Positions 4,881-64,000 of a stretch of 64,000 nt of DNA are shown here, one piece after another. The notes under the pieces were generated by a model. The model searched no databases. It saw only the letters and a program-made list of their open reading frames with translations, and was not told the origin of the DNA. The stretch is from Gammaproteobacteria bacterium. Its GTDB lineage: Bacteria > Pseudomonadota > Gammaproteobacteria > HK1. Both the position numbers and the translations under genes were made by a program. The stretch spans positions 310,001 through 374,000 of the forward strand of contig JAJFJV010000019.1 in the NCBI GenBank assembly GCA_021773635.1. The letters are read 5' to 3'. How positions within the stretch are numbered: the first letter of the stretch is position 1; the number at the start of each line of letters is the position of its first letter.

Positions 4881-5239
4881 GCACCTCAACTAAACGCGGA
4901 GCCGAGGCAGAAGGTCTGGCCCTGGCCTACCTTGAGAATCAGGGATTGCTCCTGCTGGAGCGTAATTTCCATTGCCGCCATGGCGAGATTGATCTTGTGA
5001 TGAAACACAAGGAAAGTCTGGTCTTTGTTGAAGTACGCTATCGCCGCGACAGCTACTTCGGTAGCGGCGCCGCCAGCGTGGATTACCGTAAGCAAAAAAA
5101 ACTTGCTGCCACCGCAGCCTATTTCCTCCATGGCCAGGGGACATTGACACCGCCACCCTGCCGCTTTGATGTCGTATCCGTTTCCGGCCTGCTTGGCAGT
5201 GCCGAAATCGACTGGATTACTAATGCCTTTGAGGTCTAG
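4877..5239 (+). CDS. yraN: YraN family endonuclease-like protein (UPF0102)
   Basis: 120 residues starting at the ATG that overlaps the lpoA stop (ATGA). Shows the family pattern G-x3-E near the start (KRGAEAEGLALAYLENQG), then HCRHGEIDLVMKHKESLVFVEVRYR, the E-ID-EVR arrangement of a PD-(D/E)xK nuclease-like fold. The E. coli family member has no settled function. The position after lpoA is conserved. The phosphoheptose-isomerase-like diaA gene that often sits between yraN and dolP is absent here. Confidence 0.92.
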   Translation: MSTSTKRGAEAEGLALAYLENQGLLLLERNFHCRHGEIDLVMKHKESLVFVEVRYRRDSYFGSGAASVDYRKQKKLAATAAYFLHGQGTLTPPPCRFDVVSVSGLLGSAEIDWITNAFEV

Positions 5240-5281
5240 GGGCTCACACCCTGAGTACCCGGGATGCAGGAGAACACACCC

Positions 5282-5857
5282 ATGAAAAACATACTTTACG
5301 CAATTATTTTTGGCATCGTCGCCTGGCAGCTGCAGGGCTGTGCCGCGGGCGCTGCCGGGGCCGCGGGGGGTGGTACCACGGTGGTTATCGACCGTCGAAC
5401 AACGGGTACTATCGTTGATGACCAGCTTATCGAGTTCAAGGCCATCGATGCCTTCCATAAAGATACGGAGCTATGGAAAAAAAGCCACATCAACGTAACC
5501 AGCTACAACAATATCGTGTTGCTGAGTGGTGAAATTCCGGAAGAGGGCCTAAAACGCCGCGCCGTGGCTCTGGCACGAGGTATTGAGAAGGTTCGTCAGG
5601 TCCACGATGAAACAGCCCTTGCCGCCCCCAGCTCCCTGCTTGCCCGCTCCAGCGACACCTGGATTACCAGCAAACTGAAAACCAGCCTGATTCATGCCAA
5701 GGCGGTGACCGCTATCCGGGTAAAGATCGTTACTGAACGGGGAATCGTCTATCTCCTGGGTCTGGTCAACCGCGCCGAGGCTGAGGCAGCAACGGAATTA
5801 GCGCGCAAGATCTCGGGAGTACAACGCGTCGTAAAACTATTCGAGTACCGCGACTAG
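5282..5857 (+). CDS. dolP: Outer-membrane lipoprotein with two BON domains (DolP/YraP)
   Basis: 191 residues from the ATG at 5282, with the purine-rich GCAGGAGA just upstream as ribosome binding site. The signal peptide ends in a lipobox (WQLQGC), followed by a Gly/Ala-rich linker and two BON domains (about residues 45-110 and 120-190). In E. coli DolP supports outer-membrane integrity at division sites. It is the third gene of the lpoA-yraN-dolP run. Loss of diaA between yraN and dolP is the only departure from the usual order. Confidence 0.9.
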   Translation: MKNILYAIIFGIVAWQLQGCAAGAAGAAGGGTTVVIDRRTTGTIVDDQLIEFKAIDAFHKDTELWKKSHINVTSYNNIVLLSGEIPEEGLKRRAVALARGIEKVRQVHDETALAAPSSLLARSSDTWITSKLKTSLIHAKAVTAIRVKIVTERGIVYLLGLVNRAEAEAATELARKISGVQRVVKLFEYRD

Positions 5858-5859
5858 CT

Positions 5860-5965
5860 CCAGGGATGGAGTGTATGTTGCCAGACCGCCGGGAGCGGAT
5901 GGCAACGAAGCCCCAGGGATGGGATGTATGTCGCCAGACCGTCGGGAACGGATGGCGACGAAATC
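5860..5965. repeat. Two tandem 52-53 bp hairpin repeats with compensatory changes
   Basis: Copy 1 (5860-5911) and copy 2 (5913-5965) share most bases. Each can form a stem: outer arms 5877-5883 with 5900-5906 in copy 1 and 5930-5936 with 5953-5959 in copy 2, plus a 4-bp inner stem and the same CGGGA loop. The outer arms read GTTGCCA/TGGCAAC in copy 1 and GTCGCCA/TGGCGAC in copy 2. The inner arms read CCGC/GCGG and CCGT/ACGG. Where the copies differ inside stems, both sides of the pair change. Confidence 0.8.
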
Positions 5966-5987
5966 CATGGGTTACGACCTATCAGGC

Positions 5988-6485
5988 TCAGATATCTCCA
6001 CCAATCGCCTGCCGATACAAAACTGCATCTTCCTCGCTGAAACAGCAAGCAACTATCGATTTGAAGCGGGGTGCATACTCTTGCATTAGCCCACAGGCTA
6101 TAGCCACAGCCTGTTTCTTGGGATAGCCGTACACGCCCGTGCTAATCGCAGGAAAGGCGATGGTTTCAGCGTTGTTTTCGAGGGCCAGCTCAAGGCTGTT
6201 GCGATAGCAGTTTTCCAGCAACTGTGCCTCACGCTGCTGGCCGCCATGCCATACCGGCCCCACGGTATGGATCACCCAGCGCGCAGGCAGCCTGAAAGCC
6301 GGCGTGACCCTGGCCTCACCGGTGGCACAGCCGTGCAGGGCACGGCAGGCCTTAAGCAACTCAGGTCCCGCAACCCGATGAATCGCCCCATCCACACCGC
6401 CGCCGCCCAGCAGCGAGCGATTGGCGGCATTAACGATGGCATCTACCTGCAGGGTGGTGATATCCGCAACCAGGACTTCAATCAT
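5988..6485 (-). CDS. Macrodomain protein, O-acetyl-ADP-ribose deacetylase type (YmdB-like)
   Basis: 165 residues, a stand-alone macrodomain. Marks are MIEVLVADITTLQVDAIVNAANRSLLGGGGVDGAIHRVAG (the ADP-ribose binding N-A-A-N and GGGG loop), VIHTVGPVWHGG, and AFPAISTGVYGYP (the second binding loop). These enzymes remove ADP-ribose or O-acetyl-ADP-ribose adducts. The length is typical of the family. The hairpin repeat ends 22 bp beyond its stop codon. No other ADP-ribosylation gene is adjacent, though a broken ADP-ribosylglycohydrolase lies in the island. Confidence 0.93.
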   Translation of the reverse strand: MIEVLVADITTLQVDAIVNAANRSLLGGGGVDGAIHRVAGPELLKACRALHGCATGEARVTPAFRLPARWVIHTVGPVWHGGQQREAQLLENCYRNSLELALENNAETIAFPAISTGVYGYPKKQAVAIACGLMQEYAPRFKSIVACCFSEEDAVLYRQAIGGDI

Positions 6486-6588
6486 CGTATCTTCCTCTTT
6501 CGATTAGCGTTTGGAGAGAAAGTAGCACTGAAAATAGTGGCGGGACAGCGGCTGGAAACAGCCTTGAGCCAAACGACTGCGGGAAAAT

Positions 6589-7713: not shown

Positions 7714-8463
7714 TTAATGAAGGTCCTTCCAGTACTCCCGGTACAGCAGACGAGTCAGCAGGAAAAAGCCTGCCAGGAACAACAGAACCCAAAAACCAAT
7801 TCCGTAGCGCACCAGTTTCGCCGGCTCACCCACGTAGACCAGGAAATTGGTCAGGTCACGCACGGCACGACGATACCCGTCAGCACTCAGCGTACCCGGC
7901 TCCTTCAGCTCCAGGCGCTCGATATGCTTCTTGCCATGGCTGTCCTCGGCGTACACGGGAACCTGCCGACCCTGAAGTTTCCATAGCACATGCGGCATGC
8001 CCACATCCTTGAAGACCAGGTTGTTGACGCCAAAGGGACGTGACGGGTTGGTGTCCTCATAGAAAGACAGGAAATAGGTGTACAGCCAGTCGGCACCGCG
8101 AGAGCGGGCAATCACGGAAAGATCTGGCGGTGCTACACCAAACCAGCGTTCTCCGTCCTCCGTGGACATAGCCACCTTCATCAGTTCACCACTCTTTTCA
8201 CCGGCAAACATGAGATGCTTTTGCAGTAACTTTTCATCGATCCCGAGGTCACGGGCCATGCGGTTATAGCGCATAAAATGGGCGCTATGGCAGCTAAGAC
8301 AGTAATTGACAAAAAGCTTTGCTCCCCGCTGCAGGGATGCCGTGTCCGAGAGGTCCACGTGGGCACTCTGGAGCGCTGCCCCCCCGCCCGACGCAAGCAC
8401 AGATCCGCTACCGCCAAGCAGCAGCATCAGACAAGTGATACCGAGGAAATTTTTCATTTCCAC
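7714..8463 (-). CDS. petC: Ubiquinol-cytochrome c reductase, cytochrome c1 subunit
   Basis: 249 residues. Signal peptide at the N-terminus, a single haem site CLSCH near residue 53, the downstream KVAMSTEDGERWFGVAPPDLSVIARSRGADWLYTYF block with the region that provides the haem Met ligand, and a C-terminal membrane anchor (YGIGFWVLLFLAGFFLLTRLLY). It carries electrons from the Rieske centre to soluble cytochrome c. Its start overlaps the petB stop by 10 bases, so expression is coupled. Confidence 0.96.
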   Translation of the reverse strand: MEMKNFLGITCLMLLLGGSGSVLASGGGAALQSAHVDLSDTASLQRGAKLFVNYCLSCHSAHFMRYNRMARDLGIDEKLLQKHLMFAGEKSGELMKVAMSTEDGERWFGVAPPDLSVIARSRGADWLYTYFLSFYEDTNPSRPFGVNNLVFKDVGMPHVLWKLQGRQVPVYAEDSHGKKHIERLELKEPGTLSADGYRRAVRDLTNFLVYVGEPAKLVRYGIGFWVLLFLAGFFLLTRLLYREYWKDLH

Positions 8464-9848
8464 ACCACCCTTTCCGGCACCGGCCGGGACTCATTGAGAC
8501 GGGTAAAGGCCGGACCCAGCAGGAAGACTGCGAGATAGGTCAGCGGCAACAGGGCACTACCCATAATCAAGGCACTCTTGGCCGGGTCGAAGCGCAGAAA
8601 ATCTATCGCCAGAATCGCACCCACCAGCACCACCAGCCAGGTAACGTAGACCGCTGGTGAACGTTCATTGCTATAGATCGACAAGATCAGGAAGAAGGCA
8701 AAATACAGCTCCGCCAGGCGAAAGCCCATTTCCGAATAGAGGATAGTGGCGGGTTGCGTCCCCAGGAAGCCAAGAATGACGAAGCACAGGGTAAATATCG
8801 TGATAAGCCAGAAGAACAGCGGGCTACGAAAACGGATGGACTTCACCGGATGACGGTCGATCCACGGCAGCAGGAACAGGCAGGCAATGGAGCCACCCAT
8901 GGCGGCCACTCCCGTCAGCTTGTCTGGAATCGCCCGCAAAATCGCGTAGAAAGGGGTGAAATACCACACCGGCGCGATGTGCTCCGGGGTCTTCAACGGA
9001 TTGGCTGGAACGAAGTTGGCATGTTCCAGAAACCAGCCTCCCATCTCCGGCACAAAAAACACCACGAAGGCAAAGAAAAACAGGAAGGCGGCGACGCCCA
9101 TAATGTCTTTCACGGTATAATAGGGATGGAAGGGAATACCGTCCTTGGGAATGCCGTCGGCCTTTACCTTCTTGATTTCCACCCCGTCCGGGTTGTTGGA
9201 GCCCACTTCGTGTAGCGCCATCACATGAGCCGCCACCAGCCCCACCAGCACCAGCGGCAAGGCAATCACATGGAGTGAGAAGAAACGATTGAGCGTGGCA
9301 TCCGAAACCACATAGTCGCCACGAATCCATAGTGACAAGGCCTCACCAATACCAAAAGGCAGGGCCCCGAACAGCGAGATAATGACCTGCGCACCCCAGA
9401 AGGACATCTGCCCCCAGGGCAGCAGATAACCCATGAAGGCCTCAGCCATCAGAGTCATGTAGATCAGCATGCCGAACAGCCAGATCAGCTCTCGCGGCTT
9501 CTTGAAAGAACCGTAGAGCAAACCACGGAACATGTGCAGATAGACCACCACGAAGAAAGCAGAGGCACCGGTGGAATGCAGGTAGCGAATCAGCCAGCCC
9601 CAGTCCACGTCGCGCATGATGTATTCCACCGAGGCGAAGGCGCGCTCCGCATCCGGCTTGTAATGCATGGTGAGCCAGATGCCGGTGAGCAGCTGCAGCA
9701 CCAGCACCATCAGCGCGAGGGAGCCGAAGAAATACCAGAAGTTAAAATTTTTCGGTGCGTAATACTTGGCCAGATGCTCATTCCACAACTTGGTCAGCGG
9801 GAAACGGGCATCTACCCAGTCGAGCAGGCAAACAAGAATGTTTTTCAT
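8454..9848 (-). CDS. petB: Ubiquinol-cytochrome c reductase, cytochrome b subunit
   Basis: 464 residues with about eight membrane helices. Haem-ligand histidines are seen in WLIRYLHSTGASAFFVVVYLHMFRGLLYG and in SLHVIALPLVLVGLVAAHVMALHEVG. The quinol-site PEW-type loop reads PVWYFTPFYAILRAIPDK (PVW in place of PEW, a known variant). The protein runs longer than minimal cytochrome b because of the full C-terminal domain. It overlaps petC by 10 bases and petA by one base, in one tight operon. Confidence 0.96.
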   Translation of the reverse strand: MKNILVCLLDWVDARFPLTKLWNEHLAKYYAPKNFNFWYFFGSLALMVLVLQLLTGIWLTMHYKPDAERAFASVEYIMRDVDWGWLIRYLHSTGASAFFVVVYLHMFRGLLYGSFKKPRELIWLFGMLIYMTLMAEAFMGYLLPWGQMSFWGAQVIISLFGALPFGIGEALSLWIRGDYVVSDATLNRFFSLHVIALPLVLVGLVAAHVMALHEVGSNNPDGVEIKKVKADGIPKDGIPFHPYYTVKDIMGVAAFLFFFAFVVFFVPEMGGWFLEHANFVPANPLKTPEHIAPVWYFTPFYAILRAIPDKLTGVAAMGGSIACLFLLPWIDRHPVKSIRFRSPLFFWLITIFTLCFVILGFLGTQPATILYSEMGFRLAELYFAFFLILSIYSNERSPAVYVTWLVVLVGAILAIDFLRFDPAKSALIMGSALLPLTYLAVFLLGPAFTRLNESRPVPERVVWK

Positions 9849-27118: not shown

Positions 27119-28318
27119 ATGCTTACCGCCTCTCAGGTAAAGACAGCCAAGCCAAGGGAAAAACCCTACAAACTAGCCGACGGGGGCGGTATGTTCCTGC
27201 TGGTGAACCCCAATGGCACCAAGTACTGGCGACTTAAATACCGCGTACATGGTAAGGAGAAAATGCTAGCGCTAGGGGTATATCCCAAGGTCACTCTGGC
27301 AGAGGCCCGTGGCAAGCGAGAGACAGCGCGTAAACAGCTAAAAGATGGCCTCGATCCCATGGCCGAGAAGCAGGAAGCTCAGCGCCAATCCCTACTACAG
27401 TCTGAAGACTCCTTCAAAGCACTTGCCCACGAATGGCATGAAATGAAGCGGGATATGTGGAGCCCCAAGCATGCGGCACGGGTGCTGGTGCTGCTAGAGA
27501 ACGACATATTCCCCGACTTGGGGCACCGGCCTATTAAGGAAATATCCCCCCCTGAGCTACTCGCCACGCTACGCAAGGTGGAGAAACGTGGCGCACTGGT
27601 GCTGCTTTCCAAGGTACGGGGGTATTGCGTGGTTATCTATAGCTTTGCCATTGCGAGCGGACGGGCAGAGCACAATATTGCCATGGAGTTACAGGGCGTT
27701 CTTAAGAGCCCAAAGGGGAAGCATTATCCGGCGCTAAAGCAGAGTGAACTACCCGACTTCCTGCGCGCTGTAACTGCCTATGGTGGAGAGCCTACTACCC
27801 GCCTGGGACTTCGGTTTCTCATTCTCACGCTGGTACGTACAGGCGAGCTTCGTCATGCCCGCTGGGACGAGATCGACGGTAAAGAGTGGCACTTACCGGC
27901 TGAGCGCATGAAGACAAAAGTTCCACACGTTGTACCCCTGTCCCGCCAAGCCCTGAGCATTCTGGAGGAGCTTCGCCCCTTAACTGGCCGGAGTGAACTT
28001 CTGTTCCCCGGCCGGGTGAGCCTAGCAAAGCCCATTAGCGAAAATACTCTGCTGTACGCCATTCACCGTATGGGCTACCAAGGGCGCGCTACCGGCCACG
28101 GGTTCCGCGCTACCGGCTCCACTATCCTCAACGAAATGGGCTTTAACCCTGACGCCATTGAGCGCCAGCTAGCCCATGCTGAGAAGAACAAGATCCGGGC
28201 AGCGTATAACCGGGCAGAGTACCTGCCCGAGCGGCAGAAGATGATGCAAGTGTGGGCAGACCTCATAGACGCACAGGAAGCTGGGGTCAAGGTAGTTCCT
28301 ATTCACCAACAGAGTTAA
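27119..28318 (+). CDS. Tyrosine integrase of the P4/phage-island type
   Basis: 399 residues. The N-terminal DUF4102-like arm-binding domain (MLTASQVKTAKPREKPYKLADGGGMFLLVNPNGTKYWRLKYRVHGKEKMLALGVYPKVTLAEAR) is followed by a core-binding domain and the catalytic domain. Catalytic residues can be seen: Arg in TLVRTGELRHARWDEID, His-x-x-Arg in ATGHGFRATG, His in RQLAHAEKN and the Tyr in RAAYNRAEYL. It should insert and excise the island at tRNA-Leu. The gene appears intact. Confidence 0.95.
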   Translation: MLTASQVKTAKPREKPYKLADGGGMFLLVNPNGTKYWRLKYRVHGKEKMLALGVYPKVTLAEARGKRETARKQLKDGLDPMAEKQEAQRQSLLQSEDSFKALAHEWHEMKRDMWSPKHAARVLVLLENDIFPDLGHRPIKEISPPELLATLRKVEKRGALVLLSKVRGYCVVIYSFAIASGRAEHNIAMELQGVLKSPKGKHYPALKQSELPDFLRAVTAYGGEPTTRLGLRFLILTLVRTGELRHARWDEIDGKEWHLPAERMKTKVPHVVPLSRQALSILEELRPLTGRSELLFPGRVSLAKPISENTLLYAIHRMGYQGRATGHGFRATGSTILNEMGFNPDAIERQLAHAEKNKIRAAYNRAEYLPERQKMMQVWADLIDAQEAGVKVVPIHQQS

Positions 28319-35612: not shown

Positions 35613-36206
35613 ATGAGTACAGTCATCGACTTACGGCGGCGGCGGTTTCTGACGGCATCAACCGCGGTCGTCGGCGCCACCGGCATGGCAGTCGCGGCTT
35701 GGCCTTTCATCGCCTCCTGGCGACCGAGTGAACGCGCACGGGCTGCGGGCGCGCCCGTCGTCGTCGACGTCTCAAAGCTTGAGCCCGGCCAACAGATCAC
35801 AGTCAAGTGGCGCGGCAAGCCGGTTTGGATACTGCGACGGACGCCGGAGATGCTCAGCAGGCTCAGCAGGCTCACCTTGCAGCTACGCGATCCCGCGTCC
35901 CGGGTGGCCAGCCAACAGCCGGACTATGCTCGAAACGAGTACCGTTCGATCCGCTCCGAATATCTCGTTGCAGTCGGTCTGTGCACGCACCTCGGGTGCG
36001 TGCCGACCTTCAGGCCGGATATCGCCCCAGAAGACCTTGGCCCCTCCTGGCTCGGCGGGTACTTCTGCCCCTGCCACGGGTCGCGCTTCGACCTCGCGGG
36101 ACGCGTGTTCATCGGGGTCCCCGCACCAACCAATCTGGTCATCCCTCCATATCGCTATGTCAGCGACACCGTGATCGGGATTGGCATTGACGCGAGGACG
36201 GATTGA
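35613..36206 (+). CDS. Orphan Rieske iron-sulfur protein, PetA paralogue
   Basis: 197 residues, with the same layout as the chromosomal PetA at 9848: twin-arginine anchor (DLRRRRFLTASTAVVGATG), TVKWRGKPVWILRR, then the 2Fe-2S ligands CTHLGC and CPCHGS. About 60% of residues look identical by eye. No cytochrome b or c1 gene accompanies it. It is followed by a CopA-type ATPase in the same direction. It could replace PetA in the bc1 complex under metal stress, but nothing here tests that. Confidence 0.9.
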   Translation: MSTVIDLRRRRFLTASTAVVGATGMAVAAWPFIASWRPSERARAAGAPVVVDVSKLEPGQQITVKWRGKPVWILRRTPEMLSRLSRLTLQLRDPASRVASQQPDYARNEYRSIRSEYLVAVGLCTHLGCVPTFRPDIAPEDLGPSWLGGYFCPCHGSRFDLAGRVFIGVPAPTNLVIPPYRYVSDTVIGIGIDARTD

Positions 36207-49513: not shown

Positions 49514-50773
49514 ATGGAGTGTGTTGCTAATTACGAAGTAAAAGCCGAGTGCTCCGTAGTGGAGGATGATCTCAAACTGCGAATACGGCATCCGAAAAAT
49601 CAATATAGTGCCATCGTTCGGAATATCGCACGATCAGACTATACAACGCCATTCCTGCTTTCTTTGCAGCTGTGCTTTGAAGCACCCAGCTTAGATGATG
49701 CTAGAGATATTGCGGAAGAGCATCTGGCTGATTGCTTAAATATGCTGTGCCTGGCAACGGGATCAAGTTTCAAACGATACCGTATACGCCAAGTAGTTGA
49801 TGCATCTCCCGGAACCACCGGCATGAAAACATTACTCATGTGGAGCGACTCCATAGATCATGAGGATCCACAACCCTTCCTTTCCAACGAAACTGTTGCT
49901 TCCATAGAAAGACTCTCGAAATTTGACGTCCCCCCTGCAATCCGTCGCGCTATGAGATGGTATCGATTGGGTATCGGAGCAACTGCTCCAGACGATCAAT
50001 TTACGTATTTTTGGTTCGCATTAGAAATCATCGCGGTATTTCAAAAAGACCCCAATAAGGTTCCAGATAAGTGCCCACACTGTGAGTCTGCGCTTTATTG
50101 TGAATCGTGCAAAACTCATCCAACACATAAGCCCTATCCAAAACAGGCGATACATGCCCTACTAAAGTCAGCGGACAAAGAGTGCGACGATGCAACCGTT
50201 AAACTATTGGAAAAGACCCGTAATAGTTTGATGCATGGAAAAACGTTAAGGGAAATCGAAGCGAATCTGCCTGAACCTAGGGCAGAAATCGTCGATATAT
50301 TGGGCCGCTTGTTGTGGAAGGCGCTAATTCTTCAATTTCGTCACGAAATGTTTGATGGAACACTAATACTGGGAGCCCCATCAACATATGTTCATAGAAC
50401 CATGCATGGTATCGCTCATATGCAAACAGTAGTCCCTTTCGACGGCGACGGTGATCTAGATCTTAGTTTCAAAGGAACAACGATTCAGTTCGTAGTGGAT
50501 GGCCCACCTCAAAGCGCCTTGCCGTCGGTAATACGCATGAGTTCAGTACAATATGAGCGCCTAGGCAAACTGGCATCTTTCGCGGGGGACCATCAAGAGA
50601 TGTGCAAACGAATATACGGGAAGGTCAAACGAGTGGATGACGGAGTTCAAGCTCTCGTTTTGGCGACTGATATGGCAACTATCAGAAATGCGCTGGATAA
50701 AGAGCCGAAGGAAGAGTGGCAAAAACTCTTCAGTGAGATAATCGGCGAAGCTGGAGGAGAGAGTGCCCCATAA
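49514..50773 (+). CDS. HEPN-motif protein with zinc ribbon (integron cassette)
   Basis: 419 residues. A Zn-ribbon-like CPHCESALYCESC lies near residues 193-205. LLEKTRNSLMHGKTL carries R236-x4-H241, the active-site pattern of HEPN ribonucleases. The remaining N-terminal (about 1-150) and C-terminal (about 270-419) parts are unclassified, and the arrangement resembles ApeA-type HEPN proteins. HEPN RNases act in defence and toxin systems (family knowledge). The stop codon lies in the attC. Confidence 0.8.
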   Translation: MECVANYEVKAECSVVEDDLKLRIRHPKNQYSAIVRNIARSDYTTPFLLSLQLCFEAPSLDDARDIAEEHLADCLNMLCLATGSSFKRYRIRQVVDASPGTTGMKTLLMWSDSIDHEDPQPFLSNETVASIERLSKFDVPPAIRRAMRWYRLGIGATAPDDQFTYFWFALEIIAVFQKDPNKVPDKCPHCESALYCESCKTHPTHKPYPKQAIHALLKSADKECDDATVKLLEKTRNSLMHGKTLREIEANLPEPRAEIVDILGRLLWKALILQFRHEMFDGTLILGAPSTYVHRTMHGIAHMQTVVPFDGDGDLDLSFKGTTIQFVVDGPPQSALPSVIRMSSVQYERLGKLASFAGDHQEMCKRIYGKVKRVDDGVQALVLATDMATIRNALDKEPKEEWQKLFSEIIGEAGGESAP

Positions 50774-51714: not shown

Positions 51715-51800
51715 AGCTAACGCCTGCCTTCAGCCGAACGCTTGGAGCGGATGACCGAAGGGAACTAGCGGAGAGTGGATCGGCTGAAGGCATTGTTAGA
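51715..51800 (-). other. attC site of the DUF6615-like cassette
   Basis: On the minus strand: CTCTAACAATGCCTTCAGCC opens it and GTTCGGCTGAAGGCAGGC with GTTAGCT closes it. GCCTTCAGCCGA and TCGGCTGAAGGC form a 12-bp perfect stem. The stop of the gene above is the TAA in CTCTAAC. Confidence 0.9.
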
Positions 51801-52620
51801 GATCATTTTCTCGTAAATCCCAGACCATAATTGAATCGACCTTTGGAAGTTGGTGCGAAAATTCAGACTCCCACCAATCCGGTATATCTTCACCTTTTGA
51901 TTCCAGTAGTGAGCGTACAAACAGAGGCAACCTATCGTGCAGCCCAATTAGCGCACTAGAATTGCTGTTCTCCTCAGGTTCAAACATCTCGCTATAGTAG
52001 TGCCGAATATGTCCGTAAATGCCTCGGATAGCATCGTTACGAGGGGCCATTGAGCGAGGACAACAGACTAGGCATTCGTATGGATTGCACTTGCTAGCAA
52101 TATCACTCGTAGAAACATACTTTCTGGCGGGCTTTACGAAGTGCGTTTCAAGCGTTTTAGCTGCGGCAAGAAGTACTGCTGGGTTTGCAGTCCGTGTTGA
52201 GGGGTTTCCGCCGCAAAGAAAGCTGCTAGATAAAGGCTCTGAATAAAACGCATAGAATGCCAGAGCGTTCATGCGACTTGCGTCTGAAAGTAGTTTCTCG
52301 ATTTGCAGGCCATGCGCATTGGAATATGCGAGTGATGGGTAATTATCACCTTTAGGCTTTAACTTCTTAGCTTGAATGCGAAGGCGTATGGATTGGCTTG
52401 CTCCTACGATCCACCACTCCCAATCTGCTCCTGTGGTTCTCGCTTCTTGGTGTTTTGTGAACTTCTTATACTTTAGCGGTGCGATATTGCTTGATAGCGT
52501 ATATAGCAACCAATCGGTGATGGATTCTTCGCCCACTGAGGGTTGCGCTGCGATCCATCTTGAGATGTAAGATGATGCCGAAATGAAATGGTTACATGCA
52601 GTATTCATGGGTGTGTCCAA
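51796..52620 (-). CDS. DUF6615-like protein, possible nuclease (integron cassette)
   Basis: 274 residues. EESITDWLLYTLSSNIAPLKYKKFTKHQEARTTGADWEWWIVGASQSIRLRIQAKKLKPKGDNYPSLAY is the recognisable part: E-x-x-x-T-G-A-D-W-x-W-W followed by R-x-Q-A-K, resembling the metal-binding and Lys positions of PD-(D/E)xK nucleases. A Cys cluster (CNPYECLVCC) follows near residue 185. The rest is unclassified. The final TAA lies in its attC. An ATG at 52608 is an alternative start. Confidence 0.75.
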   Translation of the reverse strand: MDTPMNTACNHFISASSYISRWIAAQPSVGEESITDWLLYTLSSNIAPLKYKKFTKHQEARTTGADWEWWIVGASQSIRLRIQAKKLKPKGDNYPSLAYSNAHGLQIEKLLSDASRMNALAFYAFYSEPLSSSFLCGGNPSTRTANPAVLLAAAKTLETHFVKPARKYVSTSDIASKCNPYECLVCCPRSMAPRNDAIRGIYGHIRHYYSEMFEPEENSNSSALIGLHDRLPLFVRSLLESKGEDIPDWWESEFSHQLPKVDSIMVWDLRENDL

Positions 52621-55185: not shown

Positions 55186-56592
55186 TTACTCCCCTTCCTC
55201 CGCGAGCACACCTGACTTTTTCTCCGTGTCATCCGCTGGAGCCTCCAGACCATACTGGCTAATCAAACGCCTCAGGCGCGGCCGGGATATGCCCAGAACC
55301 TCACAAGCCTGGCCCCGATGCCAATTGGTTGCCGCCAGTACCCGGGCGATATGCTCACACTCCACATCCGACAAACTCTGCTCGGTTGCCGGTTTCGCCC
55401 TGGCAGCATCCGTGCCCTTCCCGCCGGTCCCGGCTATTTGCTCCGGCATCAGGTCCAGGGTGATGGTATTGCCCGGGCTCAATGCCACTGCCTTCATCAG
55501 CACATTCTCCAATTCACGCACATTGCCCGGCCAGTCATAGGCCCGAAAGGCCTCCATGACTTCTCCCATGAGCCGCGGCACCTTGCGGTGCATGGTGCGA
55601 TTGATCCTGCCCAGCAGGGCGGGTACCAATTGTTCGAGATCCTCCATGCGCTCGCGCAACGGCGGTAGATGGATGTTGACCACCTGGAAACGGTAATAAA
55701 GGTCCTCGCGAAATTTTCCCTGCCCGACCCGCTCCAGCAAATCGGCATTGGTAGCACCAATGACCCGGGCGTTGGTGCGCTTAACCTCGCTCCCGCCCAG
55801 AGGCACAAACTCTTTTTCCTGGATCACTCGCAGCAGCTTGGCCTGTACTCCCGGCGATAAATCACCAACCTCATCGAGAAAGATGCTGCCGTCCTGGGCC
55901 AGGGAAAATTTGCCGGGCTGACGACTAAGCGCACCGGTGAATGCACCTTTCTCGTGGCCGAACATGTCGGATTCCAGCAGCGTCTCCACCACGGCCGCGC
56001 AGTTCACCGCCACGAACGGCGCCGATGGCTTGGTAGCAGCACAATGAATGGCACGGGCCACCAGCTCCTTGCCGGTTCCGGACTCGCCAGTAATCAACAC
56101 CGTTGCCGGACTTTGTGCCACCAGGCCGATGGTCTTGTAGATCTCTTTCATGGCTCGGCTACTGCCCACCATGGCGTAGTCGCTGTCCCCGGCACCCCCT
56201 CCACCGGCATGCACCATGCCCCTTTCGGAGCCATTGCCCGCCAGGATCTTGGTGACCGCGGCGTCCAGCTCATCGATATCAATGGGCTTGTGGATGTAGT
56301 CATCCGCTCCACGCTGCATGGCCTGAATCGTGCTTTCCATATCGTGGAAGGCGGTGATCATAATGACGCGGATGTCGGGAAAGTTTTGCTTGAACTCCGG
56401 CAGGCCCTCCAGCCCTGATTTACCCGGCATGCGGATATCCATCACCAGCAGATCCGGCTGCATTTGTTCGGCCGTAGCCAATCCTTCATCGACGCCCGAC
56501 GCCACTGCGGTATCGTAACCCTGGCTACGAAAGTGCAGCTGCAGGGTACGGCCACTCGCTACGTCATCATCAATCACAAGTATCTTTTTCAT
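55186..56592 (-). CDS. Sigma-54-dependent NtrC-type response regulator
   Basis: 468 residues. Receiver domain (phospho-Asp in LVMDIRMPGKSG), AAA+ domain with Walker A GESGTGKE, the sigma-54 contact GAFTGA, Walker B-like DGSIFLDEVGDL, and a C-terminal Fis-type HTH (EHIARVLAATNWHRGQACEVLGISRPRLRRLISQYG). It should activate -24/-12 promoters. It overlaps the kinase gene by 4 bases. The divergent respiratory genes are the likely target. Related regulators (AioR) control arsenite oxidase genes in other bacteria. Confidence 0.93.
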   Translation of the reverse strand: MKKILVIDDDVASGRTLQLHFRSQGYDTAVASGVDEGLATAEQMQPDLLVMDIRMPGKSGLEGLPEFKQNFPDIRVIMITAFHDMESTIQAMQRGADDYIHKPIDIDELDAAVTKILAGNGSERGMVHAGGGGAGDSDYAMVGSSRAMKEIYKTIGLVAQSPATVLITGESGTGKELVARAIHCAATKPSAPFVAVNCAAVVETLLESDMFGHEKGAFTGALSRQPGKFSLAQDGSIFLDEVGDLSPGVQAKLLRVIQEKEFVPLGGSEVKRTNARVIGATNADLLERVGQGKFREDLYYRFQVVNIHLPPLRERMEDLEQLVPALLGRINRTMHRKVPRLMGEVMEAFRAYDWPGNVRELENVLMKAVALSPGNTITLDLMPEQIAGTGGKGTDAARAKPATEQSLSDVECEHIARVLAATNWHRGQACEVLGISRPRLRRLISQYGLEAPADDTEKKSGVLAEEGE

Positions 56593-59222
56593 AGCTGCTC
56601 GCCAAGCTCCGCCACCGGCGCCGTTTCTGTATCAGATACCATCAGTTCATTTACAGGGCCGGTAGGCAGGGTGACCACGGCGCAGGTGCCCTTCATCTCC
56701 CCCGACCTCAACACAATATCTCCACCATGCTGGTCGAGGATGCGTTTGACAATGGCGAGACCCAGTCCGGTACCCGAGGCGCGGGTAGTAAAGAACGGAT
56801 CGAACAGCTGCTCCTGCAAACCTGGGTCGATGCCCCGCCCGTTATCACAGATGTCCACCTGAATTCTGGATCCCGCAGGGGCCAATTCCAGGCGCGTGTG
56901 AATACTGACCTGAGCTTGCCCCCGCGCAATCCCCTCCGTTGCCTGGGCGGCATTAATAATGAGATTCGAGAACACCTGCCGTAGCTTGGTACTGTCTCCG
57001 TGCAGCGTCGGGAGCCCGGGGCGAAAATGGGTGACCACCTCAACCCCATATTCATCAATACGCTTCTGGGCCAGGCTGATGGCCGTCTCCATGAGCTTGT
57101 CGATGGCAATCCATTCGGGCTTGAGGGCATCGGGCCGCGAGTAGGTCAACAGATCGGCGAGGATATCCTCCATGTAGCGCACCCGTTCCAGCGCGATCTG
57201 GTGCAGCTCGTGCTCATCGCCTCCCCACTCCCCTGCCGGTTTCCTTCCCAGCATCTGTAACGTCATCTTGATAGACGATAACGGGTTGCGCAGATCATGG
57301 GCAATCATCGAAGCCGCCTGACCCATGGCCGCCAGCGCCCGTGACCGAAGCAGCTGCTGATTGCGAGCCTCCACTTCCTGCTCCAGACGCTTGCGCTCGG
57401 TGATGTCCTCCTTGACTGCCACAAAGTGGGTGATTTCACCATCCGCAGCACGCACGGCCGAGATGGATGCAGTTTCCCAGTAAAGCTCGCCGTTTTTTTT
57501 CCGGTTCTGGAACTCGCCGCGCCACTCGCCGCCGGCGGAGATGGTTTCCCACAATTCACGGTATTCGTCCGCGCTGGTGTTCTCCGACTTGAGCATATTC
57601 GGATTTTTGCCAATCACCTCTTCCGGCATATAACCGGTCAGGCGGGCGAACTTGGGATTGACGTACTCGATGATGCCATCCCGGCTGGTGATCATAACGG
57701 TGCTGGGGCTCTGTTCGACGGCACGTGACAATTGCCGCAACTCCCGCTCGGCACGTTCCTGATCGGTGACATCCTCGCCAATACAGGTAATCCCGGTGGC
57801 CGTGCCTTCCGAACTCAGGGACAGTGTCCGGTTCCAGGAAATCACCAGCCGTTTGCCGCCGCGGGTGAGGATTTCATCCCGGTGCGACGCGGCATACGCC
57901 CCTCCCCGTTCCGGGCTCAGCAACTGCTCCCTGCTCGTAGCCCGTCGCTCAGGCGGTATAAAGGTCTCAAACCAGTCGTGCCCGTATACCTGCTCATGCT
58001 GCCATCCGGTCAGGCGCAGGAGAAAGTCGTTACAAAAGGCAATCTTGCCGTTCATGTCCAGGGTTACGGCGGCCAGCTGCACATTCTCCAGAGTCCTGCG
58101 AAAACGCCGCTCATACTCACGCTCCGCAGCCAGCTGCCGGTGCCGGAGCTGGCTGCGGGCAAGAAATATGGATGCAATCGCCAGCAATGTCAGCATCGTG
58201 GCATAGAGCAGCAGGTTCCGGCGCAGGAAAACAAGCGGTGTCGACTGCAGAACAGCGGGCGACACGTGAGCGATCACCTTCCATTGATAGGGGTCACCGT
58301 TATCAGCAGCGGGCAGCCCCGCATCCGGATTGTGGGCAACCCGGGCCTCCAGCACCGGATGGATGGTAGTAAAAGTAAACAGGCCGCCAGAGTTTAGGAA
58401 CTGCCCCGACTCGGTATTCAGGATCTGCTTCCAGGCCTCGGGATGACGCCGCCCAAAAGTCCGATCATTGTGAAACATGAAGCCCCATTGATCTTCTTCA
58501 CGCGGGCTGCTGAGCCAAAAACCATCGGCATTAACCAGTTCCACATGATCGGCAATGTTGGCGGCAGCTCGCTTGAAATGCCGAATAAGCCGCTGCCCAA
58601 AGTAGTTGAGAAAGACCACGCCTTGCTTTTGTCCGGCGCTATCGAACACCGGCATGGCAAAGCGGATCATCGGTTTTAATGGCCGTTCCACCTGCCCCCC
58701 TTCAACATTCAGGTCCAGCGGTGAAATATAGATCTGGCCACGCCCGGTTCTTAAAGATTCAGAAAAGTAATAGCGCTTCGATTTGTCCTGTAATTCACTG
58801 TCCGACACCGCTCGCACCCGCCCGCCACTATGGTTAACGCGTACGGTCTCCATCCCCGCCTTGTCGATAAACCGGGCTTGGTCATAGAGCTGTTTGTTGC
58901 GGAGAAAAGCCTTGAACTCGGTGGCGATCGGCGCCTTGTGTTGGGCGGCCGGGATTTCAAGCAAGCCGCGCGCCTCGATGTGGCCCGCCAGGAAGCCTAA
59001 ATCTGCAACCACCCCCGCAATATCCGCCCCAATCATCCGTCGCGCCAGGTCGACATTCAGCGTCTCGCTGGCCTCACGGGTAATCCGTGCAGTGCGATAT
59101 TCAGCGAAATAGTGGCTCCCCATTATGACGACAAGCAATGCCGCCAGGGGAATAAAGATACGCAAAAAGCCCTTGCTGAGGCCCCAGGGGAAAAGTTCGG
59201 AGGCTATGGGATCATGGGTCAT
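56589..59222 (-). CDS. Membrane PAS sensor histidine kinase
   Basis: About 877 residues from ATG 59222 (a start at 59288 would add 22 residues). Two membrane segments (about 18-38 and 330-350) bound a double-Cache-like periplasmic sensor. Two PAS domains follow (RFRRTLENVQLAAVTLDMNGKIAFCNDFLLRLTGW and LSRAVEQSPSTVMITSRDGIIEYVNPKFARLTGYMPEEVIGKNPNML), then HisKA with AASMIAHDLRNPLSSIKMTLQML and HATPase with FSNLIINAAQAT, DNGRGIDPG, ASGTGLGLAIV. Partner of the sigma-54 regulator. The ligand is unknown. Confidence 0.93.
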   Translation of the reverse strand: MTHDPIASELFPWGLSKGFLRIFIPLAALLVVIMGSHYFAEYRTARITREASETLNVDLARRMIGADIAGVVADLGFLAGHIEARGLLEIPAAQHKAPIATEFKAFLRNKQLYDQARFIDKAGMETVRVNHSGGRVRAVSDSELQDKSKRYYFSESLRTGRGQIYISPLDLNVEGGQVERPLKPMIRFAMPVFDSAGQKQGVVFLNYFGQRLIRHFKRAAANIADHVELVNADGFWLSSPREEDQWGFMFHNDRTFGRRHPEAWKQILNTESGQFLNSGGLFTFTTIHPVLEARVAHNPDAGLPAADNGDPYQWKVIAHVSPAVLQSTPLVFLRRNLLLYATMLTLLAIASIFLARSQLRHRQLAAEREYERRFRRTLENVQLAAVTLDMNGKIAFCNDFLLRLTGWQHEQVYGHDWFETFIPPERRATSREQLLSPERGGAYAASHRDEILTRGGKRLVISWNRTLSLSSEGTATGITCIGEDVTDQERAERELRQLSRAVEQSPSTVMITSRDGIIEYVNPKFARLTGYMPEEVIGKNPNMLKSENTSADEYRELWETISAGGEWRGEFQNRKKNGELYWETASISAVRAADGEITHFVAVKEDITERKRLEQEVEARNQQLLRSRALAAMGQAASMIAHDLRNPLSSIKMTLQMLGRKPAGEWGGDEHELHQIALERVRYMEDILADLLTYSRPDALKPEWIAIDKLMETAISLAQKRIDEYGVEVVTHFRPGLPTLHGDSTKLRQVFSNLIINAAQATEGIARGQAQVSIHTRLELAPAGSRIQVDICDNGRGIDPGLQEQLFDPFFTTRASGTGLGLAIVKRILDQHGGDIVLRSGEMKGTCAVVTLPTGPVNELMVSDTETAPVAELGEQL

Positions 59223-59361
59223 TATCAAGGCGCCTGAAGCACCCGAACAAGACGGTGGCGATGCAGCCACCGACCACGGGAGTTTCATCTTAGCACGCCC
59301 GAAAAAACCCGCGATTACCTCCGAAACCAGTTGAACAAAATCGACTTTATCAACCTGGGAT

Positions 59362-59612: not shown

Positions 59613-60416
59613 ATGCGAGCTGGAAAATTCCGGAACACCCTGACAGCCGTGGCGGCCTTGTTGCTAGCCCTTCCCATCGTCAGTCATGGCGCCACCTACA
59701 AGGTTGTCGAGGTGGCCGACGGCGGCAGTGTTAAGGGAAAACTCAGCTTTGAGGGTGCGCTTCCGGCCGACGCCATAGAAAAGATCGGCATCACCAAGAA
59801 TCCTGAAGTCTGTGACAAAGACCCAAACAATCCCGGCTACCGGGAGGTCATCTGGATAGATGTAGACAAGGGCGCGCTGCGTGGTGCCTTTGTCTATCTG
59901 GACAAGGTTAAAAAGGGTAAAAAATGGGCGCCGCCAACGGACGGAAAGGATGGGGATTTTCTCGTCAACCAGGAAGGCTGTCGCTTTCGACCCTGGGCCC
60001 AGGTAGTCAAGCCGGGCAACCTGGTAATCAGAAACAGCGACAAGGGTGTATTGCACAACATTAATACCCGCGAGCTCATCGGCGTCGAGAAAAAACGCAA
60101 ACCCATCAAGCGCACCATGTTCAACTTTGGCCAGCCGGACCCGGGTGATATCGAGCAGGAACTCAAACCCCGGCGCTCAGCGCATATCTCCGTTAACTGT
60201 GAGGCCCATAACTTCATGTTTGCCTACATGATGGCCCCCAAGCATCCCTATGCAGTGGTGGTCAAGGAAGACGGTAGCTATTCCATCGACAACATCCCGC
60301 CAGGCAAGTACACCCTCAAAGCCTGGCACCCCAGGCTCGGAGTGAAGAAGGCCAAGATCACCGTCCCGGCCAAGGGCTCGGTGGAGAACAATTTCGTATT
60401 TTCCGCGAAGAAATGA
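59613..60416 (+). CDS. Periplasmic cupredoxin-like protein with regulatory-like C-terminal domain
   Basis: 267 residues from the ATG at 59613; GAGGAG 9 bases before it and the signal peptide MRAGKFRNTLTAVAALLLALP support this start over the longer frame. Putative type-1-copper ligands: His in VLHNINTREL, and Cys-x2-His with a following Met in VNCEAHNFMFAYMMAP. The C-terminus (SYSIDNIPPGKYTLKAWHPRLGVKKAKITVP) resembles a carboxypeptidase-regulatory or CNA-B fold. The layout is that of methylamine-utilisation plastocyanin-like proteins. It may carry electrons for the enzymes encoded downstream (inferred). Confidence 0.75.
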   Translation: MRAGKFRNTLTAVAALLLALPIVSHGATYKVVEVADGGSVKGKLSFEGALPADAIEKIGITKNPEVCDKDPNNPGYREVIWIDVDKGALRGAFVYLDKVKKGKKWAPPTDGKDGDFLVNQEGCRFRPWAQVVKPGNLVIRNSDKGVLHNINTRELIGVEKKRKPIKRTMFNFGQPDPGDIEQELKPRRSAHISVNCEAHNFMFAYMMAPKHPYAVVVKEDGSYSIDNIPPGKYTLKAWHPRLGVKKAKITVPAKGSVENNFVFSAKK

Positions 60417-60438: not shown

Positions 60439-61596
60439 GTGAGGAACCAAATCAGACAGGCACCCCCATGGCGCTCGGCTTTAATGACCGCACTGGTGGC
60501 CGTATCGATTGCAATACTCCCCGGATTTGCCAGCGCCGGCGACTACCCCGCACTGGGCCCCCTGGCAGCAAAAAAGGCCCCCAAATCTGCCCTCGTAGAG
60601 ATGGGGAAACGGCTGTTCTTTGATGCCCGAATGTCGGGCGATGGCGCCATCAGCTGCGCCACCTGCCACCATCCCAAACAGGGCTTCACCCGACAGAAAG
60701 ATGAGGACGGCAAACCCATGGTGCTGTCCGATGCCTATCCGGGCACCAAGCACTACCGCAACGCCCCCACCCTCATCAATACCATCTATAAGGCGGACTT
60801 TGCCGATGCCGGCTGGTCCTGGGATGGGCACATGGGGGCCAACCTTAACGACGTGGTACGCAACGAGATCACCGAGACCATGATCCTGAACCTGGACATG
60901 CGCCTGATGCACGAGCGCATGAAACAGGACCCGGTGTACGTGAAGATGTGCAAGCAAAACTTCAACGGCGAATGCAGCTCCGGCAAGGGCCGCAAGGCGC
61001 TGGTGGCTTTTGTGCAAACCCTGGTGTCCCGGGATGCACCCTTCGATAAGGGCAAGTTATCGAAGGCAGCCAAGCGTGGCCGCAAGCTGTTTGAAGGCAA
61101 GGCCGGCTGCATCCAGTGTCACAACGGCCCCTACCTCTCCGATGGCAAGCCCCATAACACCGGAGTCGACGAGAACTTCGATGTCTTCAAGAATCCGTTG
61201 CGCCACATCACCTTGCGCGCCGTAACCACCAACCACGGCGTACCCAAGGCGGATATCTGGCGCCGGGATGTGGGTTACTTCCTGGTGAGTAAAAACTACG
61301 CCGATGTGGGCAAGTTCATCACCCCCACCCTGCGTGAACTCAAATACACCGCCCCCTATATGCACAACGGGATGATCGCCACCCTCGACGCGGTGGTGGA
61401 GTTCTATAACCAGGGCGGGGGGCACGATGACCCGCTGGCCACCGAATTGAAGCCATTGAAGCTCAAGGCAAAAGAGAAGAAGGATCTGGTGGCCTTTCTG
61501 AAGAGCCTGAGCAGCGCCAAGCCAGTCACGGTGGAGCCGGTCAAGGTGCCGCAGAAATATAAACCCATCGCGAACTGGGCAAGCACACACAATTAG
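60439..61596 (+). CDS. Di-haem cytochrome c peroxidase-like protein (IdrP-type)
   Basis: 385 residues, GTG start with AGGAGG 7-8 bases upstream, signal peptide to about ASAGD. Two haem c motifs: CATCHHPKQGF near residue 75 and CIQCHNGPYLSDG near residue 228. The sequences between carry the CcpA/MauG-type blocks (KHYRNAPTLINTIYKADFADAGWSWDGHMGANLND, TPTLRELKYTAPYMHNG). In iodate-reducing bacteria two such peroxidases, IdrP1 and IdrP2, accompany iodate reductase. The gene precedes a second copy after 11 bases. Confidence 0.88.
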   Translation: MRNQIRQAPPWRSALMTALVAVSIAILPGFASAGDYPALGPLAAKKAPKSALVEMGKRLFFDARMSGDGAISCATCHHPKQGFTRQKDEDGKPMVLSDAYPGTKHYRNAPTLINTIYKADFADAGWSWDGHMGANLNDVVRNEITETMILNLDMRLMHERMKQDPVYVKMCKQNFNGECSSGKGRKALVAFVQTLVSRDAPFDKGKLSKAAKRGRKLFEGKAGCIQCHNGPYLSDGKPHNTGVDENFDVFKNPLRHITLRAVTTNHGVPKADIWRRDVGYFLVSKNYADVGKFITPTLRELKYTAPYMHNGMIATLDAVVEFYNQGGGHDDPLATELKPLKLKAKEKKDLVAFLKSLSSAKPVTVEPVKVPQKYKPIANWASTHN

Positions 61597-61607
61597 AGGA
61601 CAAAGCG

Positions 61608-62828
61608 ATGAAAGCAATCACAAAACTATCCAGTGTGCTGCTCGCGAGCTTTGTTTTGGCGACCATCAGCACGAACGTTCTGGCCGAAGGCGACCCGGAC
61701 AAGGATCCGGCACTGGCACCTTTGCCACCGGTACCGACGCCGCCGGACAATCCCATCACCAAGGCGAAATCCGAGCTCGGCAAGCTGTTGTTTTTCGACC
61801 CGAAACTCACCGGTGATGCCAGCCTATCCTGCGCCGACTGTCACGACCCGAAACAGGGCTTTGGCACCAACGAACCCATCTCCCGGGGTTATCCGGGCAC
61901 GGTCCACTGGCGTAATGCCCACACCGCCGTCAACAGCGGCTATCTGGCGAAACTGTTCTGGCAGGGAAATGTCGGGAGCCTGGAGAAGCAGGCACCCACG
62001 GCCAATAAGGGTGCGCTGGCCGGCAACGGCGAGAACGACGTGATGGAGGCACGGCTGCGGCAGACGCCCTACTACATCAAGGCTTTCAAGGAGGTTTATG
62101 GGACAAGGCTGCCCAACATGGGCGATGCCTGGATGGCCATCGCCACCTTCGAGCGTGACATGCTCACCCAAAAGAACACACCGCTGGATCGTTACCTGAA
62201 GGGCGACAAAAAGGCTTTGTCAAAAGACGCCGTCGCCGGCATGAAGCTGTTTACCGGCAAGGCCAATTGCATCGAGTGTCACAACGGTCCGATGCTCTCG
62301 GACGAAAAGTACTACAACCTCGGCCTGCCACGCCCGCCAGAGTTCGAGGAGTCCGGCATGAATCAAATCGCCTACCGCTGGGAGAATTACGCCAAGGGCG
62401 TGTACGAGAAACGTTATCGGGAATGGAAGGACGATGCCGGGGTGTATTACACCACCAAGCGCATCAAGGATGCCGGCAAGTTCCGCACCCAGCCGCTGCG
62501 CTATCTCGCCTACACGGCCCCCTATATGCACGCGGGCCAGTTCTTCACCCTCGAAGAGGTGGTGGATTTCTATAACGAAGGCGGTGGTGAAAACCAGTTC
62601 ACCAAGCAATACGGCAACAAAACCAAGATTCTCAAACCCCTGAACCTCAACGACGAGGAGAAGGAGGCTTTGGTGGCCTTTCTGGAAGAGATCAGTGGCG
62701 AAGAGATCCAGATGGCAATTCCCAAGGTCCCCGGTTACGGAGTGATGCCGGACGTCAAGGGACTCACCCAGAGCAAGGCCAAACGCATCGGTCTTGAGAC
62801 CCACCTGTCCAGCACCGCGAAACGCTAA
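61608..62828 (+). CDS. Second di-haem cytochrome c peroxidase-like protein (IdrP-type)
   Basis: 406 residues, signal peptide ending near VLAEG. Haem motifs CADCHDPKQGFG (near residue 76) and CIECHNGPMLSDEKYYNLGLPRP (near 221). Similar to the gene before it but with different flanks (HWRNAHTAVNSGYLAKLFWQGNVGSLE). The paired arrangement points away from a lone stress peroxidase and towards the iodate-reductase type of cluster. Stop is followed after 13 bases by the Rieske gene with a strong AAAGGAGG. Confidence 0.88.
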   Translation: MKAITKLSSVLLASFVLATISTNVLAEGDPDKDPALAPLPPVPTPPDNPITKAKSELGKLLFFDPKLTGDASLSCADCHDPKQGFGTNEPISRGYPGTVHWRNAHTAVNSGYLAKLFWQGNVGSLEKQAPTANKGALAGNGENDVMEARLRQTPYYIKAFKEVYGTRLPNMGDAWMAIATFERDMLTQKNTPLDRYLKGDKKALSKDAVAGMKLFTGKANCIECHNGPMLSDEKYYNLGLPRPPEFEESGMNQIAYRWENYAKGVYEKRYREWKDDAGVYYTTKRIKDAGKFRTQPLRYLAYTAPYMHAGQFFTLEEVVDFYNEGGGENQFTKQYGNKTKILKPLNLNDEEKEALVAFLEEISGEEIQMAIPKVPGYGVMPDVKGLTQSKAKRIGLETHLSSTAKR

Positions 62829-62841
62829 AGGAGGCGACCCC

Positions 62842-63393
62842 ATGCCTAGCAAACAAGACAAGACGCCGTCGAAATCGGGCTGCATGAGTCGCAGAGCCTT
62901 CCTGTTCCGCAGCAGCGCGGTAGTCGGGGGAACGGTGGTACTCACCCATATTCCCGGGATGGAGGGTGAGGCCCTGGCGGCCGAGATAGCCCGCTACCCG
63001 CGGATGCTGATTGGCAAACTGAGCCAGCTCAAGGTGGATAAGCCGGTTGCATTTAACTATCCGGACAAGGGCGCCAACTCCCAGAGCCTGCTGGTCAAGC
63101 TCAGTGCCGAGGCCGGCGGTGGCATCAGCCCCAAACACAACGTGGTGGCCTTCAACAGCCTGTGCACCCATATGGGTGGCCTTATGGGTGCCACCTACAA
63201 GCCGGCGGATCAGGTCCTTGGGCCTTGCCCCCTGCACCAGTCCACCTTTGACCTTACCCGTCACGGCATGGTCGTCAGTGGCCATGCCACCGAGAGTCTG
63301 CCTCAGGTCCTGCTGGAACTGGACGGCGACAAAATCTACGCGGTTGGCATGCTCGGCCTGATTTATGGCCGCCACGACAACCTCAAAAGCTAG
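62842..63393 (+). CDS. Rieske small subunit of arsenite-oxidase-family enzyme (AioB/IdrB-like)
   Basis: 183 residues from ATG 62842 with AAAGGAGG before it. A twin-arginine signal (SRRAFLFRSSAVVGGT) predicts Tat export. The 2Fe-2S ligands are CTHMG and CPLHQSTFDL. The positions after each pair are Gly and Leu, so the disulfide cysteines of high-potential Rieske proteins are absent. It is immediately followed by the large subunit, the usual order for this family. IdrB and AioB both fit. Confidence 0.9.
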   Translation: MPSKQDKTPSKSGCMSRRAFLFRSSAVVGGTVVLTHIPGMEGEALAAEIARYPRMLIGKLSQLKVDKPVAFNYPDKGANSQSLLVKLSAEAGGGISPKHNVVAFNSLCTHMGGLMGATYKPADQVLGPCPLHQSTFDLTRHGMVVSGHATESLPQVLLELDGDKIYAVGMLGLIYGRHDNLKS

Positions 63394-63408
63394 CGGAGGA
63401 TTAGCCCC

Positions 63409-64000
63409 ATGGCAGACTCAAACTCCACCCCGTTTTATCATCCGGAAGACAAGGTACCGCTGCCTCCGAAAAATGCCGAGGTACTCACCACTTGCTGTGA
63501 CTACTGTTCCATAGCCTGCGGACTGAAGGTCTATCGCTGGCCGGTGAACAGCCCTGATGGCGGCCCTAAAAAGAGCCAGAACGCCCTCAATCGGAATTAT
63601 CCGTTACGGCCTGGCCAGGGCGGCTGGGTTGGGCCCAATCAGTACACACAGGCGACCCACAAGGGACGGCTGCACAATATCGCCATCGTCGCCGATCACA
63701 AGAGCCGGGTGGTCAATGTGGGCGGTGGACACAGTATTCGTGGTGGCTGTATCGCCCAGAAGGTCTACAACCCGCAAAAACCCACCCAGGATCGGCTACA
63801 GCATCCCATGATCCGCATCAACGACATCCTGATGCCGGTCACCTGGGATTTCGCCCTCGATATCGCCGCTGAGGTCTCCAAACACGTAATAAAAAAACAC
63901 GGCGAGAGCGCCTGGGCACTGAAGTATTACAGCTACCAGTTCTTCGAGAATACCTACGCGCTGACCAAGCTGGCCCTGAAGAGCATCAACACACCGGCCG
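63409..64000 (+). CDS. Molybdopterin large subunit, arsenite-oxidase/iodate-reductase family (AioA/IdrA-like), 3' cut
   Basis: First 197 residues. LTTCCDYCSIACGLKVYRWP provides the C-x2-C-x3-C 3Fe-4S motif of this family, and GGGHSIRGGCIAQKVYNP holds the segment where other DMSO-reductase enzymes have the fourth Cys but AioA has Ser. FENTYALTKLALKSINTPA resembles the AioA block after it. No twin-arginine signal, so it would be co-exported with the Rieske subunit. Whether the substrate is iodate or arsenite cannot be decided from this part. Confidence 0.88.
   Translation, partial: MADSNSTPFYHPEDKVPLPPKNAEVLTTCCDYCSIACGLKVYRWPVNSPDGGPKKSQNALNRNYPLRPGQGGWVGPNQYTQATHKGRLHNIAIVADHKSRVVNVGGGHSIRGGCIAQKVYNPQKPTQDRLQHPMIRINDILMPVTWDFALDIAAEVSKHVIKKHGESAWALKYYSYQFFENTYALTKLALKSINTPA

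Follow-up and report, generated by a model that had tools for sequence, protein, structure and literature searches.

We describe here a gene cluster of the dissimilatory iodate reductase (idr) type that begins near the 3′ end of a 64,000-nucleotide stretch of the genome of an uncultured gammaproteobacterium (contig JAJFJV010000019.1, positions 310,001 to 374,000; G000:C11:310001-374000; hereafter "the window") and continues past its edge; the genome comprises 2.55 Mb in 46 contigs and is 99.6% complete. The cluster is best read as a novel form of Idr that comes with respiratory machinery of its own. It probably encodes a periplasmic iodate reductase of the IdrABP1P2 type that works mainly in the iodate-reducing direction, with a catalytic subunit from a distinct and well-supported IdrA subclade and with the genes for its own respiratory module in the same block. 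The sequence evidence for placing the enzyme in the Idr family is good, with iodate as the inferred substrate.

Among the open reading frames of the window, four genes lie side by side on the + strand between 60439 and 64000, just as an earlier note on this DNA had described them: two di-haem peroxidase-like genes, a Rieske subunit and the start of an AioA-family molybdenum subunit, adjacent and in one direction. The first, idrP1 (60439..61596), encodes a periplasmic CCP_MauG protein with two CxxCH motifs, both kept in 75/75 long P1 homologues, and holds a fixed place in the idr block; the second, idrP2 (61608..62828), encodes another such periplasmic protein, its two CxxCH motifs kept in 76/76 long homologues and its nearest solved structures being cytochrome c551 peroxidases. 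The Rieske [2Fe-2S] subunit IdrB (62842..63393) carries the C-x-H...C-x2-H ligand pattern and matches TIGR02694 (the arsenite_ox_S family) at 110.8 bits against a cut-off of 95.65. The molybdenum catalytic subunit IdrA, assigned by phylogeny and active-site residues, is cut at the window edge (63409..64000); on the contig it is complete at 901 aa (L002:9410-12115, window-equivalent 63409-66114). IdrB bears the twin-arginine translocation (Tat) motif SRRAFL; by inspection, the N-termini of P1 and P2 look Sec-like and IdrA appears to have no signal. The block is more than a chance arrangement, because in every related locus with 3.3 kb or more of upstream sequence (74/74, a count that includes the window's own locus) the A gene occurs together with P1, P2 and B, with P1 on the opposite side of idrA in L076 only. 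Within the same genus, genome G001 encodes a large-subunit copy 95% identical to that of the window, and the third genome, G002, yielded AioA-like matches only and no IdrA-type gene.

The large subunit falls on the IdrA side of the family. In a careful tree anchored on idr-type clusters (P1P2BA) rather than on the IdrA sequences of Pseudomonas sp. SCT, Denitromonas sp. IR-12 and Azoarcus sp. DN11, the split between AioA and Idr-type proteins received support of 100/100, as did an 11-row subclade of its own that holds the window protein; a quick 80-row tree agrees. Full-length identity to AioA proteins is below 30%, as against 49-60% to IdrA-type proteins of sister clades, including 55% to Vibrio THAF190c, 51% to Azonexus hydrophilus and 50% to Thiothrix plasmid genes. 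At the Azonexus locus the gene order is kinase-regulator-P1-P2-B-A-cytochrome c-moaA, an accessory set that has been reported for the clade holding the confirmed iodate reducers (PMC8801600). A scan with one genome per species separated two kinds of loci by large-subunit identity, at 67-95% (L020-L040) and 56-60% (L041-L099). Hosts of the subclade are Gamma-, Beta- and Alphaproteobacteria, Planctomycetota and one Deltaproteobacteria/Myxococcota bin, such that gene and host phylogenies conflict, with the proviso that several host names derive from the binning of metagenome-assembled genomes and may be wrong.

The AioA glutamate E203 is present in 8/8 AioA proteins; in its place stands S/A/G in 22/22 members of the subclade (S in the window protein) and S/D/P/A in the 49/49 Idr-type proteins outside it. 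H195, R419, H423, all three cysteines and the serine of the cluster are retained on the Idr side. The [3Fe-4S] motif of the window IdrA reads C30-x2-C33-x3-C37-x71-S109, its last spacer being one residue longer than in the otherwise matching C-x2-C-x3-C-x70-S of DN11 (PMC10149662). The same genome also encodes a separate, canonical AioBA in which E203 is present (L100:3486-4010 and 4034-6529). The earlier claim of an Idr-type cluster is thus borne out by phylogeny, by the loss of E203 and by the linked idrP1P2 genes; the protein did not group inside AioA with arsenite-binding residues, no pairing of aioX/ars genes with a want of IdrA affinity was found and the canonical AioBA stands apart. As a separate observation, that aioBA locus (L100:3486-8384) also holds an aquaporin-like gene and one for a pentapeptide-repeat-like protein.

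The feature that sets this cluster apart lies past the window edge. On its 3′ side idrA is followed by genes for a HEAT protein of 742 aa, a c cytochrome, a CydA-like protein of 724 aa and three more cytochrome subunits, the largest of which carries an EB_dh domain; further 3′ are more c cytochromes, SCO1 and another CydA-like protein, of 617 aa, which has three subunits of its own. The two CydA-like genes are about 8 kb apart, and no other CydA-family genes were found in the genome. For the 724-aa protein, an AlphaFold2 (AF2) model (pLDDT 78.6) predicts a CydA fold, matching bd oxidases with a VIA Z of 31 over 345 residues at 3.8 A; the membrane subunits of alternative complex III, also considered as its fold, fell far below this (VIA Z 16-20) and were rejected. 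Apparent equivalents of E. coli CydA H19, E107, H186 and M393 are H55, E142, H279 and M441, and no clear match to E99 and E445 was seen in the CydA-like proteins, in an alignment that is weak for the 724-aa and the 617-aa copies alike, so that statements on ligands are made with caution. No plasmid match was found for the module. After the 617-aa module come genes for a Usp/PCP_red protein, a radical SAM protein of the NirJ/AhbD-like kind and a protoporphyrinogen oxidase; this set is found, near either idr or the CydA-like module, at L003:12061-16944 and in L025, L029, L032, L072, L084 and L094, and it may provide a special haem for the module.

In its gene set and order (P1-P2-B-A), its AioA-related molybdenum subunit with a [3Fe-4S] motif, its Rieske protein with a Tat motif and a nearby sigma-54 two-component system, the window cluster matches the Idr of SCT, IR-12 and DN11. 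It differs from these in its distinct IdrA subclade, in the attached cupredoxin, HEAT protein, c cytochromes (several) and pair of CydA-like modules, and in lacking a moaA gene adjoining idrA; the published Idr island holds at most idrABP1P2, c551, moaA and a two-component system, without a dedicated quinone oxidoreductase. The modules instead resemble the OR-N type (CydAA′) of Nitrospinota and Nitrospirales, a proposed cytochrome c-oxidizing O2 reductase of nitrite oxidizers that is biochemically unproven (PMC10839748, PMC12342949). Common to both are a CydA-fold protein without an adjoining CydB, c-type cytochromes and an EB_dh subunit (type II dimethyl sulfoxide reductase haem-b), and in gammaproteobacterial genomes the same module stands beside nitrite oxidoreductase (NXR) genes; the window modules differ in being paired with Idr rather than NXR.

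The pairing of module and idrA is recurrent. Among the 15 loci of the subclade that have 5 kb or more of downstream sequence, 13 have the 724-type module downstream of idrA; of the remaining two, the L025 genome carries both module types on a different contig, and neither type is found in the L035 Planctomycetota genome. The 724-type also occurs near idrA of the other clade (L065, L073, L077, L096), and in 14 loci, e.g., in Candidatus Thiodiazotropha, the 617-type is placed upstream of P1. Since the Rhodospirillaceae loci L073, L077 and L096 combine an IdrA of that other clade (57-58% identity) with the same module at 74-79% identity, the parts have been joined more than once. Across 369 gammaproteobacterial genomes, drawn evenly and not independent of one another, idrA was found in 14, the module in 14 and both in nine, against an expectation of 0.53 (p ~1e-11); by genus, the count was eight against 0.49 expected, and with the window's own genus set aside and only genomes holding both counted, six genera remained (p ~2e-7). 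The search model for the module was built from idr-linked copies and may favour that subfamily. In G169, G218 and G233 the module and idrA lie on separate contigs. Five genomes carried the module without idrA: in two of them (G109, G209) short contigs hold accessory genes like those of idr, and in the other three NXR genes adjoin the module (NxrA in G135 and G355, NxrB in G030), with scores to the Kuenenia enzyme of 1628 bits for NxrA and 584 bits for NxrB.

Upstream of idrP1 lie three further genes that appear to belong with the cluster. A secreted type-1 copper protein with a cupredoxin-like domain and a C-terminal beta-sandwich is encoded at 59613..60416 (+ strand), most likely from the ATG at 59613 rather than the TTG at 59364 of the longest frame. 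Its cupredoxin fold is predicted (AF2 pLDDT 90; top Foldseek matches to amicyanin, pseudoazurin and NirK), and the four copper-ligand residues H148, C196, H199 and M202 are invariant across 24 homologues. The gene, which the earlier note took as a possible mark of a variant, is real and recurs near idr in about 30 loci; what truly makes this cluster a variant is the CydA-like/cytochrome module past the window. On the - strand, a sigma-54-dependent response regulator of the AtoC/NtrC-like type (55186..56592; Pfam Response_reg, Sigma54_activat and HTH_8) adjoins its partner, an AtoS-like PAS sensor histidine kinase of uncertain start codon (56589..59288; HK_sensor_dom_bact, PAS, HisKA and HATPase_c). 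Such a two-component system stands beside many idr clusters of our set, regulator homologues adjoining idr in L018, L019, L020, L023, L096 and others. It had been thought an unusual companion, a view at odds with the literature, in which it lies upstream of idr in the confirmed iodate respirer Azoarcus DN11 (PMC10149662) and near idr in most of the confirmed clade (PMC8801600). A kinase and a regulator 55-60% identical to those of the window (regulator, 60%) were also seen beside NXR in L134, one of three gammaproteobacterial loci (L132, L134, L136) in which a Kuenenia-type NxrA or NxrB adjoins a CydA-like module.

Iodate reduction with a dedicated respiratory module is, in our analysis, the most likely function, because every tested Idr system reduces iodate, as demonstrated for Idr-type bacteria (PMC8692401, PMC10149662, PMC11445184). 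In such a scheme, the sigma-54 two-component system would turn on the cluster, and IdrA (Mo-bisPGD, [3Fe-4S]) would exchange electrons with the membrane CydA-like/cytochrome modules by way of the Rieske centre of IdrB, the copper protein in the periplasm and c-type cytochromes. At low oxygen, the enzyme would mainly reduce iodate, yielding hypoiodous acid or iodide, with P1 and P2 clearing peroxide or reactive iodine. The CydA-like modules might either reduce O2 with electrons from this cytochrome pool or connect the pool with the membrane chain. For the chlorite dismutase route of the published SCT model, no PF06778 match was found in the genome.

Several points weigh against iodate reduction. 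The large subunit scores 385.7 bits against TIGR02693 (arsenite oxidase; cut-off, 359.05), a match whose weight is tempered by the Azonexus Idr-type large subunit, which bears an arsenate reductase (azurin) annotation. The characterised Idr enzymes stand outside our tree, and for the subclade itself we found no biochemistry and know of no tested member. Many Idr-type genomes, among them those of Ruegeria, Endozoicomonas and Enterovibrio, are without the module, which would therefore be dispensable for iodate reduction as such. Lastly, the same module type beside NXR genes in three genomes points to the opposite direction, as current models there run the module from cytochrome c to oxygen (PMC10839748).

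This parallel with nitrite oxidizers makes reverse oxidation a real alternative in our analysis, albeit an unlikely one: IdrA would mainly oxidize hypoiodous acid or iodide toward iodate, with electrons passing from IdrB through cytochromes to the CydA-like modules and O2, which would make the process the iodine equivalent of nitrite oxidation. Beyond the likeness of the module to the supposed O2 reductase of Nitrospinota and Nitrospirales and its linkage to NxrA or NxrB in the absence of idrA, the module copy of G030 nests among idr-linked copies in a CydA-like tree whose NXR-linked copies came from Gammaproteobacteria. The sister enzyme AioA, moreover, is an oxidase. Energetically, the IO3-/I- couple has an average potential of about +0.67 V at pH 7, below that of O2/H2O, which would favour oxidation, but the potential of the I-/HOI step is near that of the O2 couple and argues the other way. 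Likewise set against it are the iodate-reducing activity of every tested Idr system and the want of clear E99/E445 equivalents, which leaves O2 reduction by the CydA-like proteins unproven. No RuBisCO, and hence no RuBisCO-based autotrophy, was found in the genome, and an aa3-type oxidase is encoded elsewhere (C42), so that the host needs neither lithotrophy nor a CydA-like oxidase; its other respiratory genes include a second COX1-family gene adjoining cytochrome b (C13), a NapA-like protein (C9) and, within the window, a bc1-type cytochrome b (cytochrome b/c1 genes, 7714-9848). Rather doubtful, too, is the stronger proposition that the subclade Idr is wired to a CydA-like oxidase for respiratory oxidation of iodide or hypoiodite with O2, conserving energy and acting as a biological source of iodate.

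That the subclade enzyme acts on another oxyanion while retaining the Idr architecture seems to us decidedly unlikely. Identity to other Idr-type clades is just 49-60%, and confirmed iodate reducers fall in few clades (PMC8801600), but the subclade shares its P1P2 companions and the examined catalytic residues with those other clades. It is very improbable that the CydA-like modules are mere neighbours, functionally unconnected to Idr: several lineages do have Idr-type clusters without modules, but the strength of the co-occurrence, which extends to genomes with the two on different contigs, and the repeated pairing of varied IdrA clades with the same module type speak against it. An arsenite oxidase AioBA, which shares the fold family, the pairing of Rieske and molybdenum subunits and most active-site residues, whose solved structures are the closest to the large subunit and whose TIGR02693 and TIGR02694 models score above cut-off, can be rejected with little hesitation given the tree and low identity, the missing E203, the linked di-haem peroxidases and the true AioBA elsewhere in the genome.

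The partnership of Idr and its respiratory module bears on two broader questions. The regeneration of iodate in the ocean is unsettled, with more work urged (PMC8692401), and for the electron route into Idr published accounts offer no more than a non-dedicated quinone oxidoreductase; the recurrent association of Idr with a module of the nitrite-oxidizer type, combined anew more than once, names genes for both. It also suggests that metagenomic idrA alone may not separate reducers from oxidizers, and raises the testable question of whether the enzyme reduces iodate only or also runs in reverse with oxygen. Idr-type clusters are easily misread, because standard annotation labels their large subunits arsenite oxidase. 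A limited literature search found no paper tying iodate reductase to cytochrome bd, though one may exist elsewhere.

Elsewhere in the window, the region 26866-51591 bears an integrated element of about 24.6 kb. A tRNA-Leu (caa) gene there precedes a gene for a tyrosine integrase (27119-28318), and the 24-bp sequence CGCTCCCGGCACCAAGCATGCTTT occurs as a direct repeat at 26939 (the 3′ end of the tRNA) and again at 51568. We considered whether idr might be cargo of this element; it ends at about 51.6 kb, short of the idr cluster, and therefore does not carry it. Within the element, a gene at 35613-36206 encodes a bc1-type Rieske protein with a UCR TAT signal, apart from the cytochrome b/c1 genes. 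Between 44000 and 56000, the G+C content is 0.46-0.51 versus about 0.58, with small orphan genes, and this part also holds a MauJ-domain gene (49514-50773) and a DUF6615 gene (51796-52620).

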